Below, piece after piece: positions 56,817-62,110 of a stretch of 64,000 nt of DNA. A program made the position numbers and the translations under genes. How positions within the stretch are numbered: the first letter of the stretch is position 1; every line of letters begins with the position of its first letter. The stretch spans positions 62,001 through 126,000 of the forward strand of contig CAMYJH010000006.1 of assembly GCA_947258715.1 (NCBI GenBank). The letters run 5' to 3'. The stretch comes from an uncultured Gammaproteobacteria bacterium. GTDB taxonomy: Bacteria; Pseudomonadota; Gammaproteobacteria; HK1. The notes beneath the pieces are model-generated. The model saw only the letters and a program-made list of their open reading frames with translations, made no database searches and had not been told where the DNA came from.

Positions 56817-57563
56817 ATGTTGCTCCACCTTTGCACCTGGCAGGAGATCGAGCGCTATCTCGAACGCTCCAAAGGCGTCATTGTTCCCATCGGCTCCACC
56901 GAACAGCACGGCCCCAACGGCCTCATCGGCACCGACGCCATTTGCCCTGAGGTGATCGCTCGGGGAGTGGGCGAAAAAATCGATACGCTGGTGGCGCCCA
57001 CGCTCAGCATCGGCATGGCCCAGCACCACCTGGGCTTTCCCGGATCGGTCAGCTTCAGGCCATCGACGCTGATCGCCGTTGTTCGGGATGTGGTGCAGTC
57101 ACTTGCCCGACACGGTTTCGAGCACTGCTATTTTCTCAACGGACACGGCGGCAATATCGCCACCCTTTCCGCCGCCTTTTCAGAGGTCTACGCCGAGAAC
57201 AGTTTTAGCGGCAGCAAAAACCGTTCGCGCATTCGCTGCAAGCTGAGCCAATGGTACATGGCGCCTGGAGTGAAAAGACTTTCGGCGGAGCTTTTCGGCA
57301 GCTCCGAAGGCAGTCACGCGACTCCCTCGGAAGTTTCGCTCACCTACTTCGCTTATCCCGACGCAGTGAAGTCAGTCACCATGTCGCCGAAGCTGGCACC
57401 CACCGGAGCGTTCTACGATGCCGACCACTACCGCAGCCGTTTTCCCGACGGCCGCATCGGTTCGGACCCTTCCCTGGCCAGCATCGACGCCGGCCGACAA
57501 CTTTACGAAGCGGCGATCGAAGACGTGGCCCGGGATTACAAAGAATTCTTAAAAGTATCCTAA
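56817..57563 (+). CDS. Creatininase-family amidohydrolase
   Basis: The 248-residue metalloenzyme has the creatininase ligand pattern: GSTEQHGPNGLIGTDA (Glu, His, Asp), NGHGGNIATLSAAF (His) and GSSEGSHATPSE (Glu). IGMAQHHLGFPGSVSF is another family element. Members open cyclic amides such as creatinine, or act on other substrates (guanosine-derived compounds, MftE peptide). The reaction cannot be decided here. It is 46 bp upstream of the GcvT-SHMT fusion on the same strand, suggesting a methylated-amine or one-carbon role. Confidence 0.88.
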   Translation: MLLHLCTWQEIERYLERSKGVIVPIGSTEQHGPNGLIGTDAICPEVIARGVGEKIDTLVAPTLSIGMAQHHLGFPGSVSFRPSTLIAVVRDVVQSLARHGFEHCYFLNGHGGNIATLSAAFSEVYAENSFSGSKNRSRIRCKLSQWYMAPGVKRLSAELFGSSEGSHATPSEVSLTYFAYPDAVKSVTMSPKLAPTGAFYDADHYRSRFPDGRIGSDPSLASIDAGRQLYEAAIEDVARDYKEFLKVS

Positions 57564-57609: not shown

Positions 57610-60288
57610 ATGACGGAAAAGCGCGAAAATCTTCTCAAGACGGTGCTTCATCAGTGGCACCTCAGCCACGATGCAAAGATGGTGCCCTTCGGCGGCTGGG
57701 ACATGCCGGTGCAGTACGCGACGGGAATCATCAAGGAGCACCTGGCTACGCGGCGCAACGCCGGTCTGTTTGACGTCTGCCACATGGGTCGCTTCAGCAT
57801 TCGAGGGAAGGGCGCGGAAGAATTTCTCAACTACGTGCTGAGTAACAACGTCTACGCGCTGGAGCCCGGGCACGCACACTACACCTTTATCGCCACCCCC
57901 ACCGGCGGTGCGGTGGACGACGCTTATCTTTACAAGATCGACGAGGACGATTTTCTGCTGGTCGTGAACGCAGCCAACCGCGACAAGGACTGGCGATGGC
58001 TGGAACAGCACAACCATCGCCGAAATCTCGAGTTGACGAACATCAGCGAGCAGCTGTGCATGATTTCGCTGCAGGGGCCGAACGCGTCGTCGATACTTGA
58101 GAAGCTGGTGGACAAGTCCGCCCTGCCAGAGAACAAGCGTAATCAGCTCGGCACGGTGCGAATAGGCGGCAACGACGTGATCGTCGCGCGGACGGGCTAC
58201 ACCGGTGAATCGGTTTGTTTCGAGCTTTTCCCGCCGCGGGATTTCACTCAAGCCCTGTGGCAGAAACTCGTCGACCATGGCGCCCAGCCGGTAGGGCTGG
58301 GGGCGCGGGACTCGCTTCGTCTGGAAGCGGGTCTGCCGCTTTATGGTCACGAACTGGGCAAGGATCCGGAAGGCAACGAAATCCCAGTGTTTGCCAACCA
58401 CCTGGCGCGTTTCGCCGTTTCGGCAAACGACAGCCACGACTTCATCGGTAAGGAAGCGTTGAAAAAACAGCGCGAGGAGTACACCCGGATCCGCCGCGGC
58501 GAGATCGAAACAGAGTTGGATAAGCGCCTGCTCAAGAGGCTGGTTCAGCCGCTGGCGGTGTTTAACGGTCGCAGGCCGTTACGCGCTGGCTATCGCGTCT
58601 ATCGCGACGGCCAGCACGTTGGCTTCGTCACCTCCGGCACCAGCGTGCCCTATTCACGTTTTTACGAAAGCGCAATCACCGCGCTGCCCTCCGAAGAGCA
58701 CGACATGCGCCCCATCGGTCTCGCCCTGTTGGACGCGGAGATCCGCTATCGCAGCGACCGACCGGTGACGCTGGAAATCGAGGACGACCGCGGCAAACGC
58801 TTCGGCGCGGAGCTGGTGGAGAAAAATGTCTGGCCGTCGGCGCCCTATGCGCGGGCCTATACCGGTTTCGAAACGCCGCGAACGACGCCCCGCGTCGAAG
58901 GCGAGGACCTGATGCAGTACGGCGCCCGCCTGATGAAGGACGCCGAGGCCAATACCCACTGGCGGCGTACCGAGTGCATCAATCTCATTCCCTCAGAGCA
59001 GACCGCCTCCGCCTTCGTCGACCGCCTCTGTGTCATGGACCCCGCGGGCCGTTATAACGAACATAAAGCGCTCAAAGCCCTCGGCCCAAACGCTCCCCAC
59101 GTGCGTTACTACAAAGGGACGGGGTTCATCATGGAACGGGAAGAGGAGCTCAAAGCGGCGCTCGCAACCTTCTTCAACTGCAACCGCGTCGAGCCACGGA
59201 TCATAAGCGGACAGATGGCCAACGACACCGTCTACGACGCGCTGAAGCAGTACCGTAACCGGCATCGAACCGTCGCGCACCGCAGCCCCATCTCGCGGGT
59301 GCTGGTGCACGACTTAAACAAGGGCGGTCACCTCAGTGCGCAGGTGATGGGCGCGCTCAAGAACTATGTCGACGTCGATCCTAAAACCATGCGCCCGGCG
59401 GTAGAACATTTTCCTTTTCAAAGGGAGAACCCGCACCGCATCGATGTCGAGGCTACCAAGGCACTCATCGCAAGAACGGATCCGGAGCTCATTATCTTCG
59501 GACGCAGCGTGATTATTCACACCGAGCCCGTGCGCGAGATCGCGGAGTTCGTTAATGAAGAATTCGGCAAGGACAACCCGAGGCGTCCGCTAATCATGTA
59601 CGACGCTGCCCATGTGCTCGGCCTGCTGGGCAAACATTTCCAGGATCCATTCGCCGAAGGCGCCGATATCGTAACCGGCTCCACCCACAAGACCTTTTTC
59701 GGACCGCAGCGCGGCGTGGTGCTGGGCAACATCGAGCACGGCTCGCCATTCGAAGAGCTGTGGCGACATGTGGAGTCACGAGCTTTCCCGGGACACGTGA
59801 GCAACCATCACCTGGGCACGCTTCTTGGCCTGCTCGGAGCAACCTACGAAATGCTGCACTTCAAGGACGCGTATCAGGACCAGGTCATCCGCAACGCCCG
59901 TACATTCGCCCGGGCGCTTGCAGATTTGGGATTGAGTCTCGAAGGTGATCCGGCCAGCGACTTTACCCAGACCCACCAGGTGCTACTGCGCGGCGCCAGG
60001 GCCAAGGGCGAGTACCTGTCCGACCTGCTGGAAAAAAACAACATCATCACCAATCCCCAGGCCTATCACGACGACCCCGGCTTCGCCGCTGCCAGCGGTG
60101 TACGCATGGGCTCTCAGGAAATGACCCGTTTCGGCATGAAGGAGCAGGACTTCAAGGATCTGGCGGAGCTGATGGCGGAGATCATCGGCGAAGGACACGA
60201 CCGTCCCGCCGGACACTGGGTTCCCGCGGTAGAGGCGTTCCGCGGCCGCTTCACCGAGATGGAGTATTGCTTCCTGGTGGGTGACTAA
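57610..60288 (+). CDS. Fusion of GcvT-like aminomethyltransferase and serine hydroxymethyltransferase
   Basis: The 892-residue protein has two complete enzyme domains. Residues about 1-410 are a GcvT-type folate protein: HLSHDAKMVPFGGWDMPVQY, FDVCHMGRF, and GGAVDDAYLYK with Asp103 at the position of the catalytic aspartate, then GYTGESVCFELF and ARDSLRLEAGLPLYG. Residues about 430-892 are a serine hydroxymethyltransferase: ECINLIPSEQTAS (family NLIASEN), and the PLP lysine Lys694 in TGSTHKTFFGPQRGV. One frame covers both without a stop. Normally these are separate proteins. The fusion could pass 5,10-methylene-THF from the T domain to make serine, but the substrate of the T half is unknown. 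No gcvH or gcvP is nearby. Confidence 0.92.
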   Translation: MTEKRENLLKTVLHQWHLSHDAKMVPFGGWDMPVQYATGIIKEHLATRRNAGLFDVCHMGRFSIRGKGAEEFLNYVLSNNVYALEPGHAHYTFIATPTGGAVDDAYLYKIDEDDFLLVVNAANRDKDWRWLEQHNHRRNLELTNISEQLCMISLQGPNASSILEKLVDKSALPENKRNQLGTVRIGGNDVIVARTGYTGESVCFELFPPRDFTQALWQKLVDHGAQPVGLGARDSLRLEAGLPLYGHELGKDPEGNEIPVFANHLARFAVSANDSHDFIGKEALKKQREEYTRIRRGEIETELDKRLLKRLVQPLAVFNGRRPLRAGYRVYRDGQHVGFVTSGTSVPYSRFYESAITALPSEEHDMRPIGLALLDAEIRYRSDRPVTLEIEDDRGKRFGAELVEKNVWPSAPYARAYTGFETPRTTPRVEGEDLMQYGARLMKDAEANTHWRRTECINLIPSEQTASAFVDRLCVMDPAGRYNEHKALKALGPNAPHVRYYKGTGFIMEREEELKAALATFFNCNRVEPRIISGQMANDTVYDALKQYRNRHRTVAHRSPISRVLVHDLNKGGHLSAQVMGALKNYVDVDPKTMRPAVEHFPFQRENPHRIDVEATKALIARTDPELIIFGRSVIIHTEPVREIAEFVNEEFGKDNPRRPLIMYDAAHVLGLLGKHFQDPFAEGADIVTGSTHKTFFGPQRGVVLGNIEHGSPFEELWRHVESRAFPGHVSNHHLGTLLGLLGATYEMLHFKDAYQDQVIRNARTFARALADLGLSLEGDPASDFTQTHQVLLRGARAKGEYLSDLLEKNNIITNPQAYHDDPGFAAASGVRMGSQEMTRFGMKEQDFKDLAELMAEIIGEGHDRPAGHWVPAVEAFRGRFTEMEYCFLVGD

Positions 60289-60675
60289 TCGCTCCCGTAG
60301 ATCGGCGGGACTGATTGCGTCACCGTTTACTGATTCAGGCGCGCGGACTCCAACCTCGGTCAGACGCGCCGACATCCGGCTCACATAGAGCATCTCCAGC
60401 AACAGAGCCGGGCGTGTCTCGACGCCCTGACGAGCGTTATGGATAGGCCCGAATTCGGGCCTTCTCGCCGTGCCGAACTAAAAGCATGTGTTGATTCTCG
60501 AATTCGTGACGAGGTCGTCAAAAAGCAACGCCAAGCTGCGCGATGTGGGGGGGAATCGGCTGCTAAAATTTAATTCGGCGAAAGCTTCAAAAGATCTCGG
60601 CGATCTTTTTGAAGACTTTCTTTCCATCATCGCCCGTCGATATCTCGGGCGCAGAATACAACTCGGAGCGTGCCC
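60289..60675. other. Intergenic stretch after the fusion gene
   Basis: The 387 bp contain a perfect palindrome AGGCCCGAATTCGGGCCT (60445-60462) followed by TCTC, possibly a weak terminator of the fusion gene. A frame from 60488 overlaps the next small gene and has no recognisable product. Nothing else is supported. Confidence 0.4.
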
Positions 60676-60909
60676 GTGTCAGGACATTACACCAGCACAA
60701 AAACACTCTGGTCCGAGACCCAGTTCGAGATTCTCTATCTTTCGCTGAAGAAAAACCGACCTGAAGAAGAGATCGCGCTCATCGTGCAGGATTTGAACCG
60801 ACGGGGGCACAAACCGCATCGTTTAGTAGCAAAAGCAAGGAACGAGGTTGGCATGGCCGGCGCGGGACGGCTCGCGGCAATAATCAAACGCATCGGTAAG
60901 CGGGCCTGA
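60676..60909 (+). CDS. Small hypothetical protein, 77 aa
   Basis: From GTG 60676 (with GGAG seven bases upstream) the protein reads SGHYTSTKTLWSETQFEILYL, then KKNRPEEEIALIVQDLNRRGH, and ends with KARNEVGMAGAGRLAAIIKRIGKRA (in parts). It is soluble and basic. The helical layout resembles small DNA-associated or regulatory proteins, but I recognise no family. GTG 60670 is an alternative start. It stands alone between the fusion gene and the broken cupin gene. Confidence 0.45.
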   Translation: MSGHYTSTKTLWSETQFEILYLSLKKNRPEEEIALIVQDLNRRGHKPHRLVAKARNEVGMAGAGRLAAIIKRIGKRA

Positions 60910-60924
60910 GAAACGTTCTTCTTG

Positions 60925-61317: not shown

Positions 61318-61435
61318 TGTCGACTGCGATTCATTTAAGCTTCGACCCTCCAGGGACGCGCCTCATCCGGGTTAATATATCTGCACCGTTCCCGGGATGG
61401 AGCCGCTGGATCTAGAGCCTCGAGAGCAGGATCGA

Positions 61436-62110
61436 ATGACTTTCTCACTCGCTGCAAAATGCGAACGCACCGGCGCGTTCGGCATCGCGGTGTCCTCGTC
61501 CAGCGTCTGCGTCACCAGCCGCTGTGCCTGGGTGCGCGCCGCGGCCGGTGTCGTCGCCAGCCAGAACATTACCGATCCCGCGCTCGGCGACTTGGGACTC
61601 GAGCTGCTCGGTCGGGGCTATGCAGCAGATCGGGTGCTGCGGATGCTGGTAGAGGCCGGCGCCTATCCCGAGCACCGTCAGATCACCCTCGTCGACGGCA
61701 GCGGCGAAACCGCGCACTACTCCGGAAGCAACACCCTCGGGCGGAATGCTGTGGCCCGCGGCAAGTTCTGTGTTGCGGCAGGCAATTTACTCAAACACGA
61801 ACGAGTCCCGGCGGCTATGATCGCCGCTTTCGAAGCCAATACCGATGCCGAGCTCGCAGAACGGCTGCTGTTGGCCCTCGAGGCCGGGGAAAAATCCGGA
61901 GGCGAAGAAGGAGCGATTCGTTCCGCCGGACTCAAGGTGGTGGAGCAGCTCATCTGGCCGACGGTGGATTTGCGCGTGGACTGGCACCACAAACCTATAC
62001 AAGAGCTGCGGCGGATTTGGTCGGTATTCGCCCCACAGAAGCAGGACTACATCACTCGTGCACTCGATCCCACCGCCGCGCCATCCTATGGAGTCCCCGG
62101 CGATCCGTGA
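61436..62110 (+). CDS. DUF1028 domain protein (Ntn-hydrolase-like)
   Basis: From ATG 61436 the 224-residue protein starts MTFSLAAKCERTGAFGIAVSSS, with Thr2 at the position expected of an N-terminal nucleophile. GVVASQNITDPALGDLGLELLGRGYAAD, QITLVDGSGETAHYSGSN and VAAGNLLKHERVPAAMIAAF are the family core. The domain is related to the Ntn-hydrolase fold; substrates are unknown. The upstream start at 61397 adds 13 residues that would mask Thr2. It is 90 bp before the class V PLP gene. Confidence 0.9.
   Translation: MTFSLAAKCERTGAFGIAVSSSSVCVTSRCAWVRAAAGVVASQNITDPALGDLGLELLGRGYAADRVLRMLVEAGAYPEHRQITLVDGSGETAHYSGSNTLGRNAVARGKFCVAAGNLLKHERVPAAMIAAFEANTDAELAERLLLALEAGEKSGGEEGAIRSAGLKVVEQLIWPTVDLRVDWHHKPIQELRRIWSVFAPQKQDYITRALDPTAAPSYGVPGDP

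Follow-up and report, generated by a model that had tools for sequence, protein, structure and literature searches.

The conversion of glycine to serine by glycine cleavage combined with serine hydroxymethyltransferase (SHMT) takes place in photorespiration as well as in engineered reductive-glycine pathways, and all the reactions of the glycine cleavage system (GCS) and of SHMT are reversible. GcvT-like tetrahydrofolate (THF) domains tethered to a partner enzyme occur in sarcosine oxidase and dehydrogenase, in DMGDH and in TMAO demethylase, where the partner makes the one-carbon unit. Among SHMTs, that of Methanocaldococcus jannaschii has been reported to be a true SHMT able to use H4MPT (PMC3697235). 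In the stretch of 64,000 nucleotides from an uncultured gammaproteobacterium analysed here (the window), a GcvT-type half is joined to an SHMT half, a partner which would instead consume methylene-THF. No paper on a GcvT-SHMT fusion was found among open-licence papers, and the architecture may well be listed already by automatic annotation. Both halves are of known kinds; their combination, and the subfamily of GCS-linked SHMTs, appear to be a new variation on these.

Translation of the window yields one open frame at 57610-60288 of the forward strand, 892 aa long and devoid of inner stops, in which Pfam domains of both enzymes are found, as the first-pass annotation had claimed. The GcvT-type half (T) covers residues 1 to ~408, a variable linker ~409-430, and the SHMT half (S) ~440-892. 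The features of the locus are:

56817..57563, forward strand: creatininase-family gene, upstream, 46 bp before the fusion (PF02633; below the creatininase equivalog cut-off)
57610..60288, forward strand: gcvT-SHMT fusion gene, 892 aa (one open frame; orthologous fusions in other genomes)
57646..58365, forward strand: aminomethyltransferase folate-binding domain, aa 13-252 (PF01571, 277 bits; TIGR00528 above cut-off)
57916..57921, forward strand: Asp103-Asp104 pair, the catalytic residue being Asp104, equivalent to D97 (mature numbering) of E. coli T (invariant in 35 fusions; alignment to 3a8k)
58534..58833, forward strand: aa 309-408, C-terminal barrel of the T half, divergent and carrying a clade-specific loop (~15 aa) (weak PF08669 match; alignment; predicted strands)
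58834..58899, forward strand: linker, aa 409-430, of varying length and modelled with low confidence (pLDDT < 50 at 409-411 and 414-425; length changes in the alignment)
58951..60171, forward strand: SHMT domain, archaeal-like subfamily, aa 448-854 (PF00464; nearest solved structures M. jannaschii SHMT 4uqv/4bhd)
59059..59061, forward strand: Glu484, equivalent of the SHMT catalytic Glu (invariant in 35 fusions; alignment)
59689..59691, forward strand: Lys694, PLP Schiff-base lysine (GSTHKTFFGPQRG; invariant in 35 fusions; alignment to 4uqv)
60055..60057, forward strand: Pro816, at the position of the canonical SHMT folate-binding Asn (alignment; P, S or Y in the aligned subfamily rows)

The T half scores above the curated NCBIfam cut-offs for GcvT (TIGR00528, 276 vs 236; NF001567, 325 vs 300), and T-proteins (1yx2, 1woo, 3a8i) are its nearest solved structures by sequence. 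It resembles GcvT in fold, folate-site residues and catalytic Asp. It differs, besides being joined to SHMT, in a divergent C-terminal barrel with extra loops, where GCV_T_C is partially matched at aa 309-345 (26.1 bits vs a Pfam cut-off of 25.9), and in one-residue insertions near 38-41 and after TGE200; identity to canonical GcvT is ~40%. The SHMT half lies above the Pfam gathering cut-off (PF00464, 106 bits vs 27) and below that of the NCBIfam SHMT model (NF000586, 221 vs 335; relatives 224-246). M. jannaschii SHMT (4uqv, 4bhd) is its closest solved relative by sequence and fold, the motifs GSTHKTFFGPQ and FPGxVSNHH being common to both. The two differ in that identity is ~31-33%, an insert follows Glu484, the folate-pocket Asn is replaced, and the SHMT half comes from bacteria, where it is fused or genetically linked to GCS parts. 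GlyA, the canonical bacterial enzyme, belongs to the same superfamily, has the same PLP chemistry and is often present alongside the fusion; it is the half described here that stays under the NCBIfam SHMT cut-off.

The same fusion, 49-69% identical, occurs in at least 36 other genomes of Alpha-, Beta- and Gammaproteobacteria, Acidimicrobiia and Planctomycetota (one planctomycete), that is in at least three phyla. The search for other fused proteins proposed at first pass thus confirms that the fusion is genuine. Full-length orthologous fusions without inner stops are present in independent assemblies, which rules out an assembly artefact, a frameshift or a chimeric contig. The genome of the window measures 4.9 Mb in 110 contigs. 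Nine more genomes, found through their kinship, have the fusion in a single frame (62-69% identity); two of these, G012 and G015, consist of a single contig. GTDB species genomes were scanned with the SHMT half by means of two short peptide patterns, which sets a lower bound; of the 45 loci retrieved, 36 have T and S fused (the nine kinship genomes included). The fusion is nonetheless rare, since 398 sampled genomes of the phylum contained no copy besides the window's own. In L067, from an uncultured member of Kiloniellales, the C-terminal end of the fusion is split over two frames around 2626-2982, by a frameshift or an assembly error.

On balance, the fusion is probably a bifunctional glycine-to-serine enzyme, made of a GCS T-protein and an archaeal-like SHMT, in which tethering would favour the handover of methylene-THF. 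According to this view, GcvP would load the aminomethyl group from glycine onto lipoyl-H-protein, and the T half would take it from there, passing the carbon to THF with release of NH3. The tethered SHMT half would then combine 5,10-methylene-THF with a second glycine to form serine, and the tether would favour the passage of methylene-THF between the halves. The net result would be the familiar sum of GCS and SHMT, two glycine giving serine, CO2 and NH3. The fusion, its conservation and residues, its gene linkages and the spread of P, H, T and SHMT genes are observed; donor, direction and handover are inferred. A coupling of the two reactions through shared 5,10-methylene-THF had been proposed from the start, and is the most economical reading of a genuine fusion that joins two methylene-THF enzymes whose catalytic residues are intact. 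The genetic evidence is silent on direction, and the reactions being reversible, the enzyme might mainly work the other way round: SHMT would make methylene-THF from serine and the T half would load the H-protein, yielding glycine from serine, CO2 and NH3, or supplying one-carbon units. This seems improbable, as most fusion carriers have other SHMTs as well, available for the serine-to-glycine reaction.

Residues Y91, D103, D104, Y108, Y197, E205 and R233 of the T half are invariant in 35 fusions, and Y91, D104, Y108, Y197, E205 and R233 align with the T-proteins of E. coli and T. maritima; the folate-binding ones are presumably those seen in the T. maritima structure. Asp103 and Lys694 had been singled out as key residues. 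Lys694, the PLP lysine of the STHKT motif, stands. Asp103 was rejected as catalytic residue in spite of the invariance of both Asp, since Asp104 matches the D97 position of PDB 3a8k, titled 'ETD97N-EHred', in which the aligned residue is changed to Asn. In the SHMT half E484, Y501, H574, D665, H668, K694 and R832 are invariant in the same 35 fusions. By comparison with E. coli SHMT, we take K694 to be the PLP lysine, E484 (presumably E57 of the E. coli enzyme) the catalytic Glu, D665 and H668 the PLP-binding Asp and His, and R832 the Arg contacting the substrate carboxylate. Loss of THF-binding residues, regarded at first pass as a reason to discard the proposal, concerns one half only: folate-site residues are kept in T, and the Asn of the SHMT half is missing, replaced by Pro816. 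Alignments show N-[P/S/Y]-Q in the subfamily vs N-K-N in canonical SHMT, and the nearby Phe (F825) is kept. The position of Pro816 would correspond, by assignment, to Asn341 of the B. stearothermophilus SHMT, to which a reference listed in PMC6294363 ascribes, in its title, a folate-binding role. Mainly because this Asn is missing, use of folate by the SHMT half should be viewed with caution.

The SHMT half might thus be a related aldolase or transaldolase rather than a folate-dependent SHMT, with methylene-THF made by the T half being used elsewhere. Loss of the folate-binding Asn, a score under the NCBIfam SHMT cut-off, and a detectable likeness to fluorothreonine transaldolase and to threonine transaldolase 7k34, remote relatives sharing the SHMT fold, fit this alternative, which is nevertheless very improbable. 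The fluorothreonine transaldolase model scores far below its cut-off (116 vs 650) and the context is different, the nearest solved relative is the M. jannaschii enzyme, reported to be a true SHMT (PMC3697235), and all seven invariant residues from Glu484, Tyr501 and His574 to Asp665, His668, Lys694 and Arg832 are kept. Moreover, six genomes yielded no SHMT-family protein besides the S-subfamily member, which is the fusion in G001, G016 and G071 and unfused S in the Acidobacteria G514-G516; cases of a sole SHMT, as those of a sole T, come mostly from MAGs and represent a handful of independent lineages.

Searches by tblastn with GcvH, GcvP, GcvPA and GcvPB gave no match within the window, in keeping with the earlier remark that no GcvH or GcvP gene is nearby. 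None was found in the fusion loci searched either, and the gene is not a neighbour of gcvH or gcvP. The conclusion that had been drawn, namely that the H protein is probably not a partner of the T half, finds no support in the wider genomic picture. GcvH and GcvP are encoded elsewhere in the genome of the window, in a canonical T-H-P cluster on contig C36 which includes a second, canonical GcvT. In 13 fusion genomes with GcvP and GcvH (G001, G008, G012, G015, G016, G489, G500, G503-G506, G511 and G512), corresponding to ~4 or 5 independent lineages, the fusion ranks first among the GcvT matches and is not accompanied by any other T above the cut-off; at 229 and 228 bits, the fusions of G012 and G015 are themselves just under the GcvT cut-off of 236. 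Seven of the 13 are Acidimicrobiia (G500, G503-G506, G511, G512), and in these and in G489 the genes lie on separate contigs. The fusion is the only GcvT-family candidate found in G505, G506 and G511. GcvP adjoins GcvH, without a neighbouring T, in G001, G008, G012, G015 and G016, where GcvT matches ranking below the fusion are mostly frames of at least 800 aa. The H-P cluster of G002 similarly has no T beside, and the single T above cut-off that G002, G009 and G013 possess is the unfused orthologue. Family members lacking both fusion and orthologue (G004 and G006, for example) have a canonical T. As judged from these gene inventories, some lineages probably have no T-protein other than the fusion. 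The organism of the window would use it alongside the canonical T-H-P operon. There a canonical GcvT and two canonical SHMTs are present besides the fusion, a redundancy which counts against the glycine-to-serine reading. Its particular role in this organism is less sure, because it is a second T and a third SHMT.

That H-protein is the donor of the one-carbon unit is only probable, because in four draft fusion genomes (G003, G007, G487 and G499) neither GcvP nor a convincing GcvH was found, and because the SHMT half is divergent and lacks the folate-binding Asn. It is mainly owing to these four genomes that a methylated-amine donor is a possible, minority reading. The T half would receive imine or formaldehyde from oxidases of sarcosine, dimethylglycine or other methylamines in place of the H-protein, and the SHMT half would fix the carbon on glycine. 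Fusion genomes are indeed rich in long frames with GcvT-like domains, and in the window a creatininase-family gene precedes the fusion. Yet such a donor is decidedly unlikely: the T half exceeds the GcvT equivalog cut-off and is not joined to an oxidase, the creatininase-family gene does not reach the creatininase cut-off and its adjacency is unconserved, and no other T is found above cut-off in the 13 genomes endowed with P and H. In G000 and in members of its family the GcvT family is strongly expanded: a genome may hold as many as 20 matches, the majority being frames of 800-1100 residues, probably of the demethylating dehydrogenase type.

Unfused S relatives point to glycine cleavage as well, judging from their gene linkages. 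In a Paracoccaceae MAG (L062:6004-12548; G509:C90), genes for an archaeal-like SHMT, an NAD-kinase-like protein, GcvPA, GcvPB and carbamate kinase follow each other in operon-like order, apart from the canonical T-H-P cluster of the same genome. In five Acidobacteria loci (L071, L073-L075, L079) a convergent GcvH gene lies next to unfused S. In the tree M. jannaschii SHMT is sister to the whole S subfamily relative to canonical GlyA, with two canonical rows and long branches. From sequence and gene linkages, the SHMT half appears to belong to a divergent subfamily of archaeal-like type, tied to glycine cleavage by its gene neighbours. The fusion marks it as a second SHMT subfamily among bacteria, scoring below the cut-off of the curated SHMT model. 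The NAD-kinase-GcvPA-GcvPB set is also present in G490 (L091:4535-8610) and in G486 (L094), a genome in which no GcvH was found, and looks like a second, H-less glycine dehydrogenase module. In six Acidobacteria loci (L071:5054-7443, L073-L076, L079) a sugar-nucleotidyltransferase-like gene (NTP_transferase) precedes unfused SHMT.

An AlphaFold2 model built on the alignment of 35 fusions has a mean pLDDT of 84.5 and features two well-formed domains, the best Foldseek matches being T-proteins and M. jannaschii SHMT. Poorly modelled stretches are 409-425 in the linker, 479-502 in the active-site loop, and 727-732; segment 479-502 is presumably the region contacting the other subunit in SHMT dimers. 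Because the linker is predicted to be disordered and varies in length across the aligned fusions, the model favours a flexible tether over a rigid tunnel. Physical coupling is a rather unlikely reading, in which the T half would hand methylene-THF directly to a dedicated GCS SHMT of archaeal-like type, whose altered folate pocket would mainly accept the product of the tethered T half. The same linker would suit a fusion which merely co-expresses two enzymes at a fixed ratio, with no advantage in handover and the glycine-to-serine chemistry unchanged. In Thermogutta, Paracoccaceae, Acidobacteria and genus g3, T and S are not joined, as would be expected in such a case; maintenance of the fusion across at least three phyla argues against it, and mere co-expression is possible but somewhat unlikely. 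If the fusion is the glycine-to-serine enzyme favoured here, a natural union of two methylene-THF enzymes would make the handover of a labile intermediate directly testable, and would provide one-carbon engineering with a single-chain part.

In Thermogutta (L078:2248-4444) T and S are separate adjacent genes, ~40 bp apart, in the same order as in the fusion. S is found alone in seven Acidobacteria loci and in one Paracoccaceae locus, T being absent from the locus DNA examined. In the T tree Acidimicrobiia adjoin Hyphomicrobiales, which suggests transfer between phyla. Unfused T genes of genus g3 and of G044 fall inside the fused clade. A clade made of fused genes only is not rejected by the AU test (p 0.29), so that these unfused genes may reflect either loss of S or a pre-fusion state.

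No recurrent neighbour of the fusion emerged over the 45 loci, and no gcv gene is a conserved neighbour. The creatininase-family gene had no match in the loci of relatives, and a search of the window and 37 other sequences for glycine riboswitches was negative. Neighbourhood was discarded as a guide to function, since creatininase, MATE, CoA-transferase and aminotransferase neighbours in the window are all unconserved. A DUF1028 gene lies downstream of the fusion both in the window (61397-62110) and in G003 (L024:8392-9063), the two being 62% identical, and is the only downstream neighbour seen in common between the two genomes. Between the fusion and the DUF1028 gene, the window hosts a small unannotated open frame of ~80 residues (~60674-60910, forward strand), rich in charged residues.
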